A stretch of 46,026 bases of DNA from a virus: positions 1-46,026 of the IMG/VR virus record IMGVR_UViG_3300017605_001531, one strand, 5' to 3'. Below the pieces are notes generated by a model. That model ran no database searches. It saw only the letters and a program-made list of their open reading frames with translations, and had not been told where the DNA came from. Both the position numbers and the translations under genes were made by a program. Of the stretch, positions 21,328-26,696 are shown one piece after another. Within the stretch, counting starts at the first letter, position 1; the number at the start of each line of letters is the position of its first letter.

Positions 21328-22653
21328 TCAGATGCCGCGCTCCAGCAGCGCGTAGTAGATGTCAGCGTACCGTGCCTTCTCGTCCCACGCGGGCTCTCCC
21401 GGCTTCGGCAGCAGCGCGGCGAGGTCAGCGATCGAGCCGTCCGTCGATCCGAGCAGCATCGCCCACGCCCCGACGAAGAGCTCGAGGTCGGCCAGTCGCG
21501 GCGTGTCCTGGATGAAGTTCGGAGCCGGACCTACCAGCCGGTAGACGTGCCCCTTGTCCTTCTCGAGCAGATTAGCGCGGTCGACCGTCGCCTGGTCGAA
21601 CCCCGAATTCGTCGAGAACGCGTACGACATGCCGGCCTTGTCGATCGCGCGCACGCCGAAGTCGCCGAGTCGCGCGAGCGCCCACGAGCGCAGCTTCTCG
21701 GCGAGGAGCTTGTCCGAGATCAGGTTCGAGCGCAGCAGGTAGCCGATCCCGTTGAAGAGGATCGCTTCCTGAAAGCCGAGCCCTCCCTTGATCTCCCCGC
21801 TGCCGTCGTGCAGGTCGACCATCGTCGACTCGCTCACGTGGTCGGCGCCGAGCGGAATCGGGTTCGACAGCAAGTCCTTCACGTAGGCGACCAGGTGCTC
21901 CTTCGGGCCGTGGCCGGCGAGGAAGCGGTCCTTGAACTCCTGGTCGGCCGTGTCGAACCCCAGCAGGCAGGCGCGCGTGAAGAACTGCAGCATCCATCCG
22001 ACCGCACGCGGTTGCTGGCTGCCGGTCCAGCCCTTCGCGCACGCACCGTTCGGCATGATGCCGGGGAACGATGAAGCGACCCACGCGAGCAGCATCGTGA
22101 AGTTCGCCAGCGACGCGTCGATGCCGAGCGCGGCGCCGCTGAAGAGCGACGACGACTCGAGGTGCGCGGGGTCGAAGATGTCGTACCCCTCTCCGTCCGT
22201 CATGTCGTACTTCCACCCGTCCACGCAGGTCCCGTAGTAGGCGGTGTAGCTGAACTTGAACGGCAGGTGCGCGACCGGGCGCTGGAACTGCGTGTCGTTC
22301 CACGGCATCAGGTCAGAGACGTTCCCCTCGCCTCGGACGACCTTCTCGAAGACCGTCGACAGGAACGAGCGCCGGCCACCTCCCGTCGTGTGGGTCTGCC
22401 GCGTCGAGTCGAACTCTTCGCCGCCAGGAGGATTCGGGGGCGGCCCCTCGAATCGGCAGAAGCCGGACTCGAACCCGAGCGCCGGTGCGATCACCGGCCC
22501 GCGGTACGCGGTGTCGGTCGAACTCGCGAGCTTGTGCGTCCGAGCCGCGTCGAAGACGAAGATGTTCCCCGTCTTCGGGCTGTTGAACGCGAGGTAGTGG
22601 TCGTCCTTCGAGGTGTTGAACTGAAAGTCAGGTCGGAACTTCGTCACGAGCAT
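21328..22653 (-). CDS. Unknown 441-residue protein in the recombination operon
   Basis: A large protein with a strong AAGGAGG site before its ATG; it overlaps the RusA-like gene by 26 bases. The N-terminal third is beta-rich with many aromatics (FRPDFQFNTSKDDHYLAFNS; LPFKFSYTAYYGTCVDGWKY). The rest is mostly helical (SLFSGAALGIDASLANFTML; LQFFTRACLLGFDTADQEF; LADLELFVGAWAMLLGSTDG). I recognise no catalytic motif or domain family. It lies between a resolvase and a glycosylase-like gene, yet its composition looks more like a structural or carbohydrate-active protein than a DNA enzyme. Confidence 0.75.
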   Translation of the reverse strand: MLVTKFRPDFQFNTSKDDHYLAFNSPKTGNIFVFDAARTHKLASSTDTAYRGPVIAPALGFESGFCRFEGPPPNPPGGEEFDSTRQTHTTGGGRRSFLSTVFEKVVRGEGNVSDLMPWNDTQFQRPVAHLPFKFSYTAYYGTCVDGWKYDMTDGEGYDIFDPAHLESSSLFSGAALGIDASLANFTMLLAWVASSFPGIMPNGACAKGWTGSQQPRAVGWMLQFFTRACLLGFDTADQEFKDRFLAGHGPKEHLVAYVKDLLSNPIPLGADHVSESTMVDLHDGSGEIKGGLGFQEAILFNGIGYLLRSNLISDKLLAEKLRSWALARLGDFGVRAIDKAGMSYAFSTNSGFDQATVDRANLLEKDKGHVYRLVGPAPNFIQDTPRLADLELFVGAWAMLLGSTDGSIADLAALLPKPGEPAWDEKARYADIYYALLERGI

Positions 22654-23107
22654 CGCCCCCTCCTTCTTCTTCCAGATTGACGACCGAGACGAGCGCGCGC
22701 GGCGTCAGCGTCGGGGTCGCGTAGACCTTCTCGATCCGATGCGTCACGATCCTCGAGTCATCTTCGTACGCGATGCCAGTGAGCGCGTCCTCAAGTGCGC
22801 GCACGAGCTTCGAGAGATCCGGCCTCGTAGCAGGGAATCGAGGCGCCTTCGGCCTGAGCCCTCTCTTTCCGTAGTGGCCGACGGGCCGCGGCAGAACGAA
22901 CGTGACGCGCAGTTCTACCGGACCACTCGCGGGCCACGCCTCGTCGCTCTCGGCAATCGCGCGCTGCGCCATCGCGGCGAGTTCCTGGCGCCACGGCATC
23001 GTGCGGCTGTTGTCCTGGCGCAAGAACGGCCTGCCATCCTTCGTCACGCCAGGAATGAAGCTGCCCTGCGTCGCAGCGACGCCGAGCACCTCGAACGAGA
23101 GGCTCAC
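22628..23107 (-). CDS. rusA: RusA-like Holliday junction resolvase
   Basis: A 159-residue protein with the RusA signature: SRTMPWRQELAAMAQRA (34-50), VTFVLPRPVGHYGKRG (68-83) and, in the active-site region, RPDLSKLVRALEDALTG (95-111) followed by YEDDSRIV (114-121). RusA enzymes are dimeric, Mg-dependent nucleases that cut four-way DNA junctions. Asp97, Asp107 and Asp116/117 fit the acidic cluster, but the second residue of the usual DxD is Ser99. It lies next to the RecT and exonuclease genes, consistent with resolving recombination or replication intermediates before packaging. Confidence 0.8.
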   Translation of the reverse strand: MSLSFEVLGVAATQGSFIPGVTKDGRPFLRQDNSRTMPWRQELAAMAQRAIAESDEAWPASGPVELRVTFVLPRPVGHYGKRGLRPKAPRFPATRPDLSKLVRALEDALTGIAYEDDSRIVTHRIEKVYATPTLTPRALVSVVNLEEEGGGDARDEVPT

Positions 23108-23109
23108 GG

Positions 23110-24258
23110 CTAGGTCGCCGCGATCAGTTCGTCGCGGAGCTTGCGCAGGCCGTCCGTGCCGAGCGAGTAGCCCTTGCCGGCGAGCTCGCCGCCGTGCTTC
23201 TTCAGGAGTGCGGTGAAGAGTTCTTCGCCGACCTGATCGCGCAGGGAGTTCACCTCCGAGAGCAGGGACGACGCGAGCCGCTCGTACGCCGTGCGATCGT
23301 CCGCGGGAGCCGAGGTGGCCGCACCAGCCGGCTCCGTCTGCTCCTTCGGCTTGTTCGGGCGCCGGCGCGGCGGGATCGCTCCAGCAGGAGAGGTCGGCCC
23401 AGGTTCAGGCGGCGTCGGCGACGATGGAGTGGTTGGGGACCCCGCCGCCGCCTCCCTCCCCTGGTCCGACCCCTCCACTTCTTCTCGCAGGTCAGCAACG
23501 GACGTCGGCGCGGCAGGCTTCGTCGGCGCCACGTCGATCACGCCTTCTGGCAGGTCGAGTTCGCCGCGGTCGTCCGCTTCGATCGCGCGCGCGGTCTCGA
23601 TGCTCTTCGGAGCGTACTTCATCACGGAGATCAGCAGCGTCTTCTTCGCCATCGACGCCCAGTCGGTGTTCCACACCGAGTCTTCGCGGCCGTCCTTGCT
23701 GAAGCGGCGCCGGTGCGCTTCGACCTTCTCCGCCTGCCACACGTCCCAAAAGACGCCGCCGCTCTGCGTGCGGATGATCGCGTAGACGTGCGTGATCTCC
23801 GCATCGAAATTGTCCTTCCCCTCGCGGTGCTCGAGCTTCTCGTTCAGCCCCTTCTCGAAGAGGATGTGGTCGCCCTTGCGCACCACGTCGGCACGCACGC
23901 TCGCGATGTCTCCGGTGCGGTAGCAGAGGTCGAGGAGCCCCTGGTAGCCGATTTGGAAGTTCGCCTCGAGCGCGCCGTTGTTGCGGTTGTTCTTGCGCGG
24001 GATCAGGTAGGCGCGTCCGAGCGTGCCGTCGGGTTCGAGCCCGACCTGCGCCGCCGTCATCAGCGCGGCGAAGACGCTCTTCGGCGTGCAGTCGAGGAGC
24101 TTGGGGTTCTTCTGGCAGGCCGTCACCGAGATCCGCATGAGGCGCTCGGCCGTCATGTGCCTCGGAAGGGCCATTTCGAACTGCGGCTTCATCCGAGCGA
24201 GCATCCCTCGGAAGTCGGCCATCTTCGGATCGGCAACAGCAGGCGCTTGCGCGTTCAC
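23110..24258 (-). CDS. recT: RecT-family single-strand annealing protein
   Basis: A 382-residue protein starting at the GTG at 24258, which overlaps the exonuclease stop as GTGA and has AAGGAGG 7 bases upstream. The first 220 residues match RecT proteins: LMRISVTACQKNPKLLDCTP, VFAALMTAAQVGLEPDGTLG, AYLIPRKNNRNN, FQIGYQGLLDLCYRTG and DWASMAKKTLLISVMKYAP. RecT anneals complementary single strands made by its partner exonuclease. After it comes a long Pro/Ser/Thr/Ala linker (about 245-320) and a separate C-terminal helical domain (ERLASSLLSEVNSLRDQVGE) that is larger than usual for the family and may bind a partner. Confidence 0.9.
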   Translation of the reverse strand: MNAQAPAVADPKMADFRGMLARMKPQFEMALPRHMTAERLMRISVTACQKNPKLLDCTPKSVFAALMTAAQVGLEPDGTLGRAYLIPRKNNRNNGALEANFQIGYQGLLDLCYRTGDIASVRADVVRKGDHILFEKGLNEKLEHREGKDNFDAEITHVYAIIRTQSGGVFWDVWQAEKVEAHRRRFSKDGREDSVWNTDWASMAKKTLLISVMKYAPKSIETARAIEADDRGELDLPEGVIDVAPTKPAAPTSVADLREEVEGSDQGREAAAGSPTTPSSPTPPEPGPTSPAGAIPPRRRPNKPKEQTEPAGAATSAPADDRTAYERLASSLLSEVNSLRDQVGEELFTALLKKHGGELAGKGYSLGTDGLRKLRDELIAAT

Positions 24259-25229
24259 TCCTTGTCCTCCTTGAGTTCGAGCCACTGCGCGTCGTTCACC
24301 GTGTGCGACGCGCGCTTCTTCAGCTTCGACACGAGACGCAGGCCGGAGTTCGGGAAGGTCGCGAGCGACGCTCCGTTCATCCTCGAGAGGAGCGCGTTCT
24401 GGTCAGCCTTCGCGAGATCGTCCCAGCCATCCGCGATCTTGCGATAGGAGGACGCCTCGGCGCGTCGCTGCCTCCAGCGCTCCGCGAGCTCCAGGTCCGC
24501 CGGCGCCATGATCGCCACCTTCTCCGGCACCGGCGGACACGCAGCCGCGAGCAGGGCCGAATCGTCGGGTCCGGCGTCGGGCAGCGGCACGTCTTCTCCC
24601 CTGCGACGCGCGAGCACCGTCTCCCATGCGGCGCGCAGGCGGCGAACCAGCGTCGCCTGGAACCTCTCGTCAGCCACGTAGGAGTAGATCCGAAACTCCG
24701 GCTCCCTCGCCATGAAGAGCACCGCGAGGTCCGCGTCTCGCAGCCCCGTGCAATACATCTGTTGCTGGACCTGGACTTGGTACGTGAGCGGCACACCCTT
24801 CTCGTCCCAGTCTTCGGAGTCGCCGGCGGTCTTGAACTCGACCAGGCGGCGTTCGTGCCCCTTCTCGTCGACCCAGCCGTCCGGCGTGCCGAGCACGAAC
24901 GGCGCCTCCGTGCGCAGGAAGATCGTGCGCTTCGACGGCGCGATCACGAAGAACGGGCGCTGCACCTCGAGCCCGCGCCAGTGCTCGTAGTTCGCGGCGA
25001 TGCCGGCTTCAAGGAGTTCGCGGATCTTGAGCGACCGCTTCTGCTCCTCGCTCTCCTGGCGCAGCTTCGCCGCGACAACGTCGGCGCCCGAGCGCCACTT
25101 CTTCCACTTGCCTGGCGGGAAGAACGCGGCCGACTCGCTCGCCCCGAAGCCGTGCTCGCGACGGAACGCGAGCCACTCATGGTCGAATTCGAACTCGAAC
25201 GATCGGACCGTCGAGACCTCGCTGCTCAT
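24255..25229 (-). CDS. YqaJ/lambda-type recombination exonuclease
   Basis: A 324-residue protein with GGAGGAAG before the ATG. Family motifs appear in order: GFGASESAAF (27-36), GTPDGWV (114-120), LVEFKTA (129-135) and PLTYQVQVQQQMYC (147-160), which form the metal-binding nuclease centre of lambda-exonuclease/YqaJ enzymes (Asp117, Glu131, Lys133). Such enzymes chew one strand of double-stranded ends and load an annealing protein, here encoded immediately downstream with a 4-base overlap. The C-terminal third is charged and helical. The start overlaps the stop of a zinc-ribbon microprotein as ATGA. Confidence 0.88.
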   Translation of the reverse strand: MSSEVSTVRSFEFEFDHEWLAFRREHGFGASESAAFFPPGKWKKWRSGADVVAAKLRQESEEQKRSLKIRELLEAGIAANYEHWRGLEVQRPFFVIAPSKRTIFLRTEAPFVLGTPDGWVDEKGHERRLVEFKTAGDSEDWDEKGVPLTYQVQVQQQMYCTGLRDADLAVLFMAREPEFRIYSYVADERFQATLVRRLRAAWETVLARRRGEDVPLPDAGPDDSALLAAACPPVPEKVAIMAPADLELAERWRQRRAEASSYRKIADGWDDLAKADQNALLSRMNGASLATFPNSGLRLVSKLKKRASHTVNDAQWLELKEDKE

Positions 25230-25372
25230 CGGCTCGCTTCCTCCGCTTCAATCTGCCGCTGCTCGCGACAGGATCGGCACTCGTTCACGCCGTCGCTGCG
25301 CTTGGCGCCGCAGGTCGGGCACTCGCGCGGGTCGATGCACGGGACTTCAGGAGGCTTCTTCGCTTCATCCAC
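25226..25372 (-). CDS. Zinc-ribbon microprotein (48 residues)
   Basis: A 48-residue gene between the methyltransferase and the exonuclease. The GTG at 25372 has AAGGAG 8 bases upstream and lies inside the last codons of the methyltransferase (8-base overlap); the stop overlaps the exonuclease start as ATGA. The protein holds a compact four-cysteine cluster, CPTCGAKRSDGVNECRSC (18-35), which should bind one zinc, and ends with a Gln/Glu-rich helix. Tight coupling on both sides suggests a real small protein, possibly an accessory to the exonuclease or methyltransferase. Confidence 0.75.
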   Translation of the reverse strand: MDEAKKPPEVPCIDPRECPTCGAKRSDGVNECRSCREQRQIEAEEASR

Positions 25373-26696
25373 GTGGGGACTCCTTCACGGCACGAGCCGC
25401 GAGAGTTCGGAACGCCACAGCCGCAACCAGCGGGACCACCGCGTTCCCGATGGATCGGAGGCGATCGGCTCGGTCCACCCAGGCGGCAGGCCCATCAACG
25501 CCTCGACGAAGGACGGGGCGAGCACCGCCGTCGCGGAGGTAACGCGCCCATCCGACACCGTCCGAAGGACTTGGCGGCCAAGCGGCTCGCTCCCCTCGAA
25601 CTTGCACGCCGTCGAATCGTTCCTCGCGTCCCGCGCGATCGGCGTCGCCCACAGGCTCGCTTGGTTCGCAAGCTGTTGCCCGTGGTCGACCTGCCTCGGC
25701 GCATGCGTCCGCTCGTGGCTGGTCGGCGTCGCCCACAGCAGCGAGGCGATCGTCAGCGGCGTCCCCATCCCGTTGCCGTTGCAGTGCTTCGCGAGGTTCT
25801 TCTTCTGGCGCGCTCGCCACGACTCGATCGCCTCCCCGTCGTTCACCACCGAGGCGTTCGGTGTCGGCCAGAGGTACGCCGCGTCCGTCAGCGTCTTCCC
25901 GTCGTGGCGCCCGCTCTTCGTCGAGAAGCCCTTCGCGCGCGATCCGTCGCAGTCCTTCGCGGTCGCGGTAGGCCAGCGCGAAGAGGCGCTCGCGTCGATG
26001 CGGCGCGCCCACGCTCTCCGCGGAGAACACGTCCCACTCCGCATCGAACCCGAGGTCGGCAAGGTCGCCAAGGACTTCGGCGAAGCCAAGCGCCAGGTGT
26101 CCGCGGACGTTCTCGAGGAAGACGGCTCGAGGCTCGACCTCGGCGACGATGCGTCGAACATGCGGCCAGAGGTGTCGTTCGTCGCGCTCGGCAAGCTGCC
26201 TGCCAGCGACCGAGAACGGCTGGCACGGGTAACCGGCAGTGACAAGATCCACTCGCCCACGCCAACCGCGGCCGCTGAAGGTTCGGAGATCGTCGGCCAC
26301 AGGCGCTCGATCCAGCGCCGCTTCTTCCATCCTCGCCACGAGGACGGACGCGGCGAAGGCGTCCCGCTCAACGTAACACACGCACTGGGCGTCGCAGGCG
26401 AGGCGGAGCCCGAGCTCGAGTCCGCCGATGCCGGTGCAGAGGGAGAGGGTCGCAGGCCGGGCACGAAGAGCCATCCCATGTTGGTCGACGTCCTTGTCCT
26501 CGAAGACGAGCGGGTCGATCCAGGCCGACGCAGCCCCGCCGCACGCGAGGCAGAAGTGGAAGCCGTAGAACGGAAAGTTCGCTGCGTTCGTGCAGGGATC
26601 ACCGTCGGGACGAATCCCTTCGCAGTATCCGTCGTGCGCGCGCGCCTCCGCGGTCGCGTGGACGAATCGAAGGCGAATCGCGTCGGCGGCCTTCAC
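25365..26696 (-). CDS. DNA cytosine-5 methyltransferase with N-terminal cysteine cluster
   Basis: A 443-residue protein, GTG start coupled to the upstream gene (GTGA). C5-methyltransferase motifs are clear: LSLCTGIGGLELGL (84-97, AdoMet binding), GYPCQPFSVAGR (155-166, with catalytic Cys158), FLENVRG (193-199), VGAPHRRERLFALA (229-242) and RLRSIGNAVVPLVA near 413-426. It methylates DNA cytosines at an unknown site, likely shielding phage DNA from restriction. An extra 80-residue N-terminus carries Cys25, Cys35, Cys49 and Cys52, a probable zinc ribbon. From motif VIII onward the +1 frame is also open and encodes another methyltransferase-like C-terminus, described separately. Confidence 0.88.
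   Translation of the reverse strand: MKAADAIRLRFVHATAEARAHDGYCEGIRPDGDPCTNAANFPFYGFHFCLACGGAASAWIDPLVFEDKDVDQHGMALRARPATLSLCTGIGGLELGLRLACDAQCVCYVERDAFAASVLVARMEEAALDRAPVADDLRTFSGRGWRGRVDLVTAGYPCQPFSVAGRQLAERDERHLWPHVRRIVAEVEPRAVFLENVRGHLALGFAEVLGDLADLGFDAEWDVFSAESVGAPHRRERLFALAYRDREGLRRIAREGLLDEERAPRREDADGRGVPLADTERLGGERRGGDRVVASAPEEEPREALQRQRDGDAADDRLAAVGDADQPRADACAEAGRPRATACEPSEPVGDADRAGREERFDGVQVRGERAAWPPSPSDGVGWARYLRDGGARPVLRRGVDGPAAWVDRADRLRSIGNAVVPLVAAVAFRTLAARAVKESPRG
25385..26044 (-). other. Second coding-like frame inside the methyltransferase gene
   Basis: In the +1 frame relative to the methyltransferase, an open frame ends at 25385. From about 25975 down it encodes four tryptophan-centred repeats (RWPTATAKD, LWPTPNAS, LWATPTSH, LWATPIARD) and a C-terminal FVEALMGLPPGWTEP segment. 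These resemble the variable region and end of another common class of phage cytosine methyltransferase. In the main frame the same bases encode matching repeats of LADTERLG/VGDADRAG type and the IGNAVVP motif. Expression could come from an internal ATG at 26044 (219 residues, no Shine-Dalgarno seen) or a +1 frameshift near 25975. Whether it is translated is unknown. Confidence 0.5.

Follow-up and report, generated by a model that had tools for sequence, protein, structure and literature searches.

Two overlapping frames at a methyltransferase locus

The window, by which we mean the whole stretch of DNA analysed here, is a complete virus record of 46,026 bases with a GC content of 67.8%. On its minus strand, two open reading frames (ORFs) lie over the same bases: frame A, which carries the core of a C5-cytosine methyltransferase, and frame B, which is read at +1 relative to A (Table 1). 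The original prediction had described methyltransferase-like patterns in both readings at this place, without giving the strand, and both are present.

Residues 83-248 of frame A match Pfam PF00145 (1.4e-32), and the frame matches phrog_363 (1.6e-62). It contains the PF00145 core motifs I, IV, VI and VIII, with PCQ and ENV both present, and it also contains motif X, as the family profile aligns its IGNAVVP with motif X of M.HhaI. The stretch of A between motifs VIII and X shows no selection in the A frame, and a motif IX-like block is found only in frame B, leaving the core polypeptide with neither a TRD nor motif IX. The methyltransferase as a whole would be complete only if A and B combine.

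Table 1. Features of the locus and its neighbours in the window.
Feature	Coordinates	Strand	Remarks
Frame A ORF, predicted C5-cytosine methyltransferase catalytic polypeptide (motifs I-VIII and X)	25365..26696	minus	443 aa, GTG 26696; start may be internal
Motif I, GIGGLELG, frame A	26409..26432	minus	
Motif IV with catalytic PCQ, AGYPCQPFS, frame A	26211..26237	minus	
Motif VIII, GAPHRRERLF, frame A	25980..26009	minus	in relatives, A is the selected frame until this motif ends, then B
Repeat LADTERLG, frame A	25848..25871	minus	
Repeat VGDADQ, frame A	25719..25736	minus	
Repeat VGDADRAG, frame A	25629..25652	minus	
Motif X, IGNAVVP, frame A	25431..25451	minus	selected frame is A again
Frame B ORF, +1 relative to A	25385..26602	minus	
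N-part of B, ends ...TLPTSGSMRSG	26033..26227	minus	both frames coding over motifs IV-VIII; B-stop avoidance in relatives
Four WPTP repeats, putative target-recognition region of B	25628..25978	minus	codon-position pattern in relatives
Repeat RWPTATAKD, frame B	25952..25978	minus	
Repeat LWPTPNAS, frame B	25850..25873	minus	
Repeat LWATPTSH, frame B	25715..25738	minus	
Repeat LWATPIARD, frame B	25628..25654	minus	
Motif IX-like block of B, FVEALMGLPPGWTEP	25466..25510	minus	B family consensus LNPxWVEWLMGxPxGWTD
RecE-like recombination exonuclease	24255..25229	minus	next gene, same direction as A; phrog_434, 5.3e-32
RecT-like ssDNA annealing protein	23110..24285	minus	phrog_148, 3.7e-76
RusA-like Holliday junction resolvase	22628..23107	minus	phrog_140, 4e-26

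Two features of the surroundings are recorded here. The roughly 75 residues that precede motif I in the A ORF (26696-26480, minus) show a zinc-finger-like CxnCxnCxxC pattern; the Pfam match of this N-terminal stretch is sub-threshold (zf-primase, E 0.17), and a start of A at ATG 26477 would exclude it. In the same run of genes, a 441-aa ORF (21328-22653, minus) has no PHROGs match.

Frame B carries four WPTP repeats and, downstream of them, the motif IX-like block. When single-frame, partly nested and split relatives were combined into an alignment profile, the LNPxFVEWLMGxPxGW block aligned with motif IX of M.HhaI, and GNxVVP aligned with motif X. It had been proposed that four repeats of A and four of B coincide on the same bases; this was found for three repeats of A; opposite the fourth B repeat, A reads LAYRDREG, which directly follows motif VIII. 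The LADT and VGDAD repeats of A are a shadow of the WPTP codons of B. Frame B also reaches further upstream than originally described, at least to about 26160 and probably to about 26260. Its candidate starts in the window are GTG 26260, TTG 26245 and ATG 26161; no Shine-Dalgarno sequence was seen at these three positions, and several relative loci have good pairs of Shine-Dalgarno sequence and start near -99 to -112 codons.

The openness of B is by itself weak evidence at a GC content of 67.8%, as 59% of A-synonymous permutations leave B open. Its content is not due to chance: on a profile built from 100 relatives with the window excluded, the window's B scored 174.1 bits, and the highest score among 1000 A-synonymous permutations was 92.5. 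The idea that B, being GC-rich, is open by chance was ruled out by this content, by the codon-position pattern and by the loci that are richer in AT.

Homologues of the +1 frame in other phages, on which the original prediction depended, were found. A tblastn search with the C-terminal part of B matched 54 phages (Paenibacillus, Synechococcus and others); when the same bases were read in A, the same search at the same threshold gave no homologues of this C-terminal part. B matches phrog_1008 (1.4e-11), which is essentially the B family, as phrog_363 is the A family. PHROGs calls both "DNA methyltransferase" and keeps them as separate families, and its annotation is silent on their overlap in the DNA. 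The annotation of Paenibacillus phage Shelly lists B as "g55 internal gene". A Pfam scan of B found no family, a PDB profile search with B gave no matches, and the AlphaFold model of the window's B (pLDDT 63, pTM 0.28) matched no solved fold. Because this model is poor, the putative recognition role of B rests on its place between motifs VIII and X, on motif IX and on the single-frame relatives.

Selected frame and stop avoidance

Base-by-base comparison of related loci (738 pairs, and 23 disjoint pairs) revealed which frame is constrained in each part of the gene. Up to the end of motif VIII, position 3 of the A codons is the most variable. Past motif VIII, the pattern flips within about 30 bases: A position 1, which is B position 3, becomes the most variable and A position 3 hardly varies. 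Among loci of 90-98% identity, variation past motif VIII is 0.189 at A position 1 vs 0.044 and 0.039 at the other positions. From the end of motif VIII to about 90 bases before the MGFP block, A is thus without protein-level selection. In the MGFPxGW block every position is slow or B-like, and at motif X the A pattern is back. An independent set of 36 disjoint pairs gave identical switch points. In single-frame mycobacteriophage enzymes that share this WPTP segment, the ordinary A pattern holds along the whole gene.

The window itself follows this pattern. Where B residues are identical in the window and its relatives within the B-only region, the bases differ at B position 3 (0.483) and not at position 2 (0.006). 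Third-position variation therefore does not ignore the +1 frame; past motif VIII, it follows B and not A. Since DNA identity between the window and its nearest relatives is only about 65%, the frame-by-frame selection rates describe the family. Read from these substitutions, A is the selected frame until motif VIII ends; B takes over for the recognition region and motif IX, and selection returns to A with motif X.

Both frames are also protected from stop codons. In the B-selected region of 27 unrelated loci, no A stop was observed vs 62.4 expected when the B protein was fixed and its codons were permuted, and a repeat with independent loci gave 0 vs 26.0 expected. The four loci with an interrupted A carried 26 A stops vs 22.7 expected. 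Conversely, with the A protein fixed, the last 75 codons before motif VIII contained no B stops at 53 loci, where 62.7 were expected. The same test in the third (+2) frame gave 120 stops vs 121.3 expected, and 54 other genes from the same loci gave 157 vs 154.8; these genes served as the null since the Streptococcus phage negative control had a +1 ORF of its own. In relatives, the stretch over which B is protected from stops starts about 60-100 codons before motif VIII ends, a point that corresponds to about 26260-26160 in the window. Stop avoidance in both directions argues for separate initiation of B and against a frameshift at motif VIII.

A proposed two-polypeptide enzyme and its alternatives

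Our data point to a C5-cytosine methyltransferase made of two polypeptides from one nested gene pair, in which A is the catalytic and B the specificity subunit and both are joined in one active enzyme; we assign this reading a probability of about 0.8. A would be translated straight through to give the catalytic subunit, whose motifs I-VIII and X make up the large domain, and these two parts would be linked by about 170 residues with a sequence that is a by-product of frame B. For B, translation would begin independently at an internal start that precedes the end of motif VIII by about 60-100 codons, and the product would be the specificity subunit, whose N-terminal extension, WPTP-repeat target-recognition region and motif IX would form the small domain. 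The two subunits would assemble into one active enzyme. The sequences show the frame selected in each region, the stop protection of both frames and the motifs of each, whereas the separate translation of B, its assembly with A and the methylation activity are inferred.

The closest precedent is M.EcoHK31I, whose small subunit, as Lee et al. are said to have described in 1995, is coded in another frame inside the gene of the large subunit. This resembles the window, where a second polypeptide lies in another frame within the larger gene, and B is at +1 of A in nearly all loci. PMC3404938 describes M.EcoHK31I (YGGCCR) as naturally made of two polypeptides, the large one with motifs I-VIII and X and the small one with motif IX alone. 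By this description, the distribution of motifs is that of the window, with I-VIII and X in A and IX in B. However, the TRD of M.EcoHK31I is predicted in the large subunit (same text), whereas the recognition region of the window is selected only in the small-subunit frame, B. Moreover, M.EcoHK31I is a restriction-modification enzyme, whereas the window genes are phage-borne and belong to a family spread across very divergent phages. The window is best seen as a variant of the M.EcoHK31I kind in which the recognition region, too, lies in the second frame.

Other enzymes help to place the division. In M.HhaI-type enzymes, motifs I-VIII and X build the large domain, and the variable region together with motif IX builds the small one (PMC3404938), so the two frames would split the enzyme at its domain boundary. 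M.AquI (CYCGRG), according to the same text, also consists of two polypeptides and is split in the variable region after motif VIII, which matches the split relatives L004, L006, L085 and L104. Its small subunit carries motifs IX and X and its genes are in tandem, whereas the window has motif X in A and one gene nested in the other; IX and X together in the small subunit were found in L006, L085, L104, L159 and L164. The Estave1 gp75-like methyltransferases of mycobacteriophages share the core, the WPTP segment and motifs IX and X with the window and differ from it in having one frame with an ordinary substitution pattern. A model of the single-frame Estave1 enzyme is confident in the core and motifs IX-X (pLDDT mostly >90), predicts the WPTP region poorly and matches M.HhaI best. 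A literature search, which mostly did not cover subscription papers, found no description of a phage-wide nested arrangement; PMC10885494 only names methyltransferases among frameshift predictions.

It seems improbable that B is translated with another role, such as that of a regulator or a counter-defence protein, and that A alone is an active methyltransferase. Such a role would be in line with the C5-methyltransferases of Streptococcus phages, which have the TRD in A and nonetheless carry a different nested +1 ORF over the same motifs. Their +1 frame is stop-free for 124 codons before motif VIII (0 stops vs 72.6 expected, 16 related loci) and encodes about 140 aa assigned to phrog_16143 over motifs IV-VIII (L374-L453; e.g. 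L381, L177). The end of this ORF differs from that of B (SLSDILEENVPEKYFLS), and phrog_16143 is weakly similar to the N-part of phrog_1008. The single-frame mycobacteriophages, too, retain much of the N-part of B. However, A of the nested form lacks motif IX and a selected recognition region, whereas B has both, and where relatives are single-frame or split, the B segment occupies the exact place of the TRD and motif IX.

The original prediction had put forward a programmed +1 frameshift; placed where motif VIII ends, such a ribosomal shift would fuse the A core to the recognition region of B alongside the A product. We rejected it on the stop avoidance in both directions and regard it as improbable, although the selected frame does change at the end of motif VIII and single-frame relatives hold the same segments as one ORF. 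A shift at this place needs neither an open B frame far upstream (0 stops vs 62.7 expected) nor an open A frame downstream, yet both are kept open. Moreover, the fusion product of the nested forms would lack motif X, so that a second, backward shift would be required, and no obvious common slippery site was seen by eye around motif VIII. The further suggestion of two recognition versions, in which A, bearing LADT repeats, and an A-B fusion, bearing the WPTP ones, would methylate different targets, fits two open frames with four coincident repeats each and is scarcely credible, as past motif VIII only B shows protein-level selection and no homologues of A's C-terminal part were found at the search threshold. 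Overprinting, as also predicted, is supported by the substitution patterns and by the stop avoidance in both frames.

Under the two-polypeptide reading, the N-part of B deserves separate consideration. Its amino-acid signal lies above that of A-synonymous shuffles, a null that is imperfect as two of the four single-frame enzymes also lie above their shuffles. As A position 3 mostly varies freely there as well, amino-acid constraint on the N-part is suggestive only. Because the Streptococcus phages keep a +1 ORF despite their in-frame TRD, the N-part of B may do more than lead into the recognition region. We tentatively consider, as a rather unlikely possibility, that the +1 frame over motifs IV-VIII of phage C5-methyltransferases is a general site for a second gene: a recognition subunit in most phages, phrog_16143 in Streptococcus phages and a remnant in single-frame enzymes. 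If so, the N-terminal extension of B would have a function of its own, for example in regulating or modifying the methyltransferase, and phages would change specificity by swapping the nested B segment with the catalytic subunit untouched.

Spread and forms among relatives

Well over a hundred phages, only distantly related to one another, share the A/B arrangement. We collected several hundred viral and bacterial loci with B, and nearly all have it at +1 to a C5-methyltransferase core. When 80 viral loci were fetched with B alone, the core was in the -1 relative frame in nearly all of them; when 80 were fetched with the A core alone, B was at +1 in 79, and the remaining locus was cut off. Among loci from bacterial genomes, B was at +1 in 74/80 (two also with a match in a second frame), and the other 6/80 had no A core in the stretch examined. 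The hosts include Pseudomonadota, Bacillota, Actinomycetota, cyanobacteria and more. phrog_1008 was found in 12 of 199 Pseudomonas species genomes and in none of 14 well-known control genomes.

In a pattern-based tally of 277 loci with both ends present, motif IX was in B and motif X in A, as in the window, at 172 loci; motif X was in B at 17 (split forms, including L004, L006, L085 and L104), both motifs were in A at 11, and at the remaining loci the patterns recognised the parts only incompletely. Because the loci had been retrieved through their similarity to selected queries, these tallies are not population frequencies. The Estave1-like mycobacteriophages have all parts in one ORF, and their close relatives L205, L206 and L208 are split. 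The set of WPTP segment, motif IX and motif X is thus retained while the frames re-sort, with IX and X in B, IX and X in A, or everything in a single ORF. These relatives, whose layout is single-frame, split, partly nested or nested, bear out the family history of frame switching that the original prediction had offered as an explanation.

Annotations of these loci mostly leave out one of the two proteins or pick the wrong frame. In the Synechococcus phages L002 and L003, the B frame is annotated "hypothetical protein" and the complete methyltransferase core in the other frame is missed; in L168-L172, only A is annotated. Target recognition would not be predictable from A, because the putative recognition region is in B. 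Taken together, the loci offer a large natural collection in which nested genes appear to split an enzyme at a domain boundary and relatives exist in single-frame, split, partly nested or nested form, and M.EcoHK31I, an old single case, now looks like part of a broad class.

Several loci depart from the common forms. In L044 (IMGVR_UViG_3300049216_000571), A ends right after motif VIII and has 14 A stops in the middle of the region, with motif X still in A downstream, and B holds the recognition region and motif IX; this is possibly a three-piece or decaying form. In Mycobacterium phage Ochi17 (L007, gp73/gp74), the core is split by a frame change between motifs IV and VIII, and B is still at +1 of the downstream piece. 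One chromosome, a Roseovarius MAG (OX638333.1; L344-L346, L348, L349), carries at least five similar nested methyltransferase loci, which suggests multiple copies of one prophage or element.
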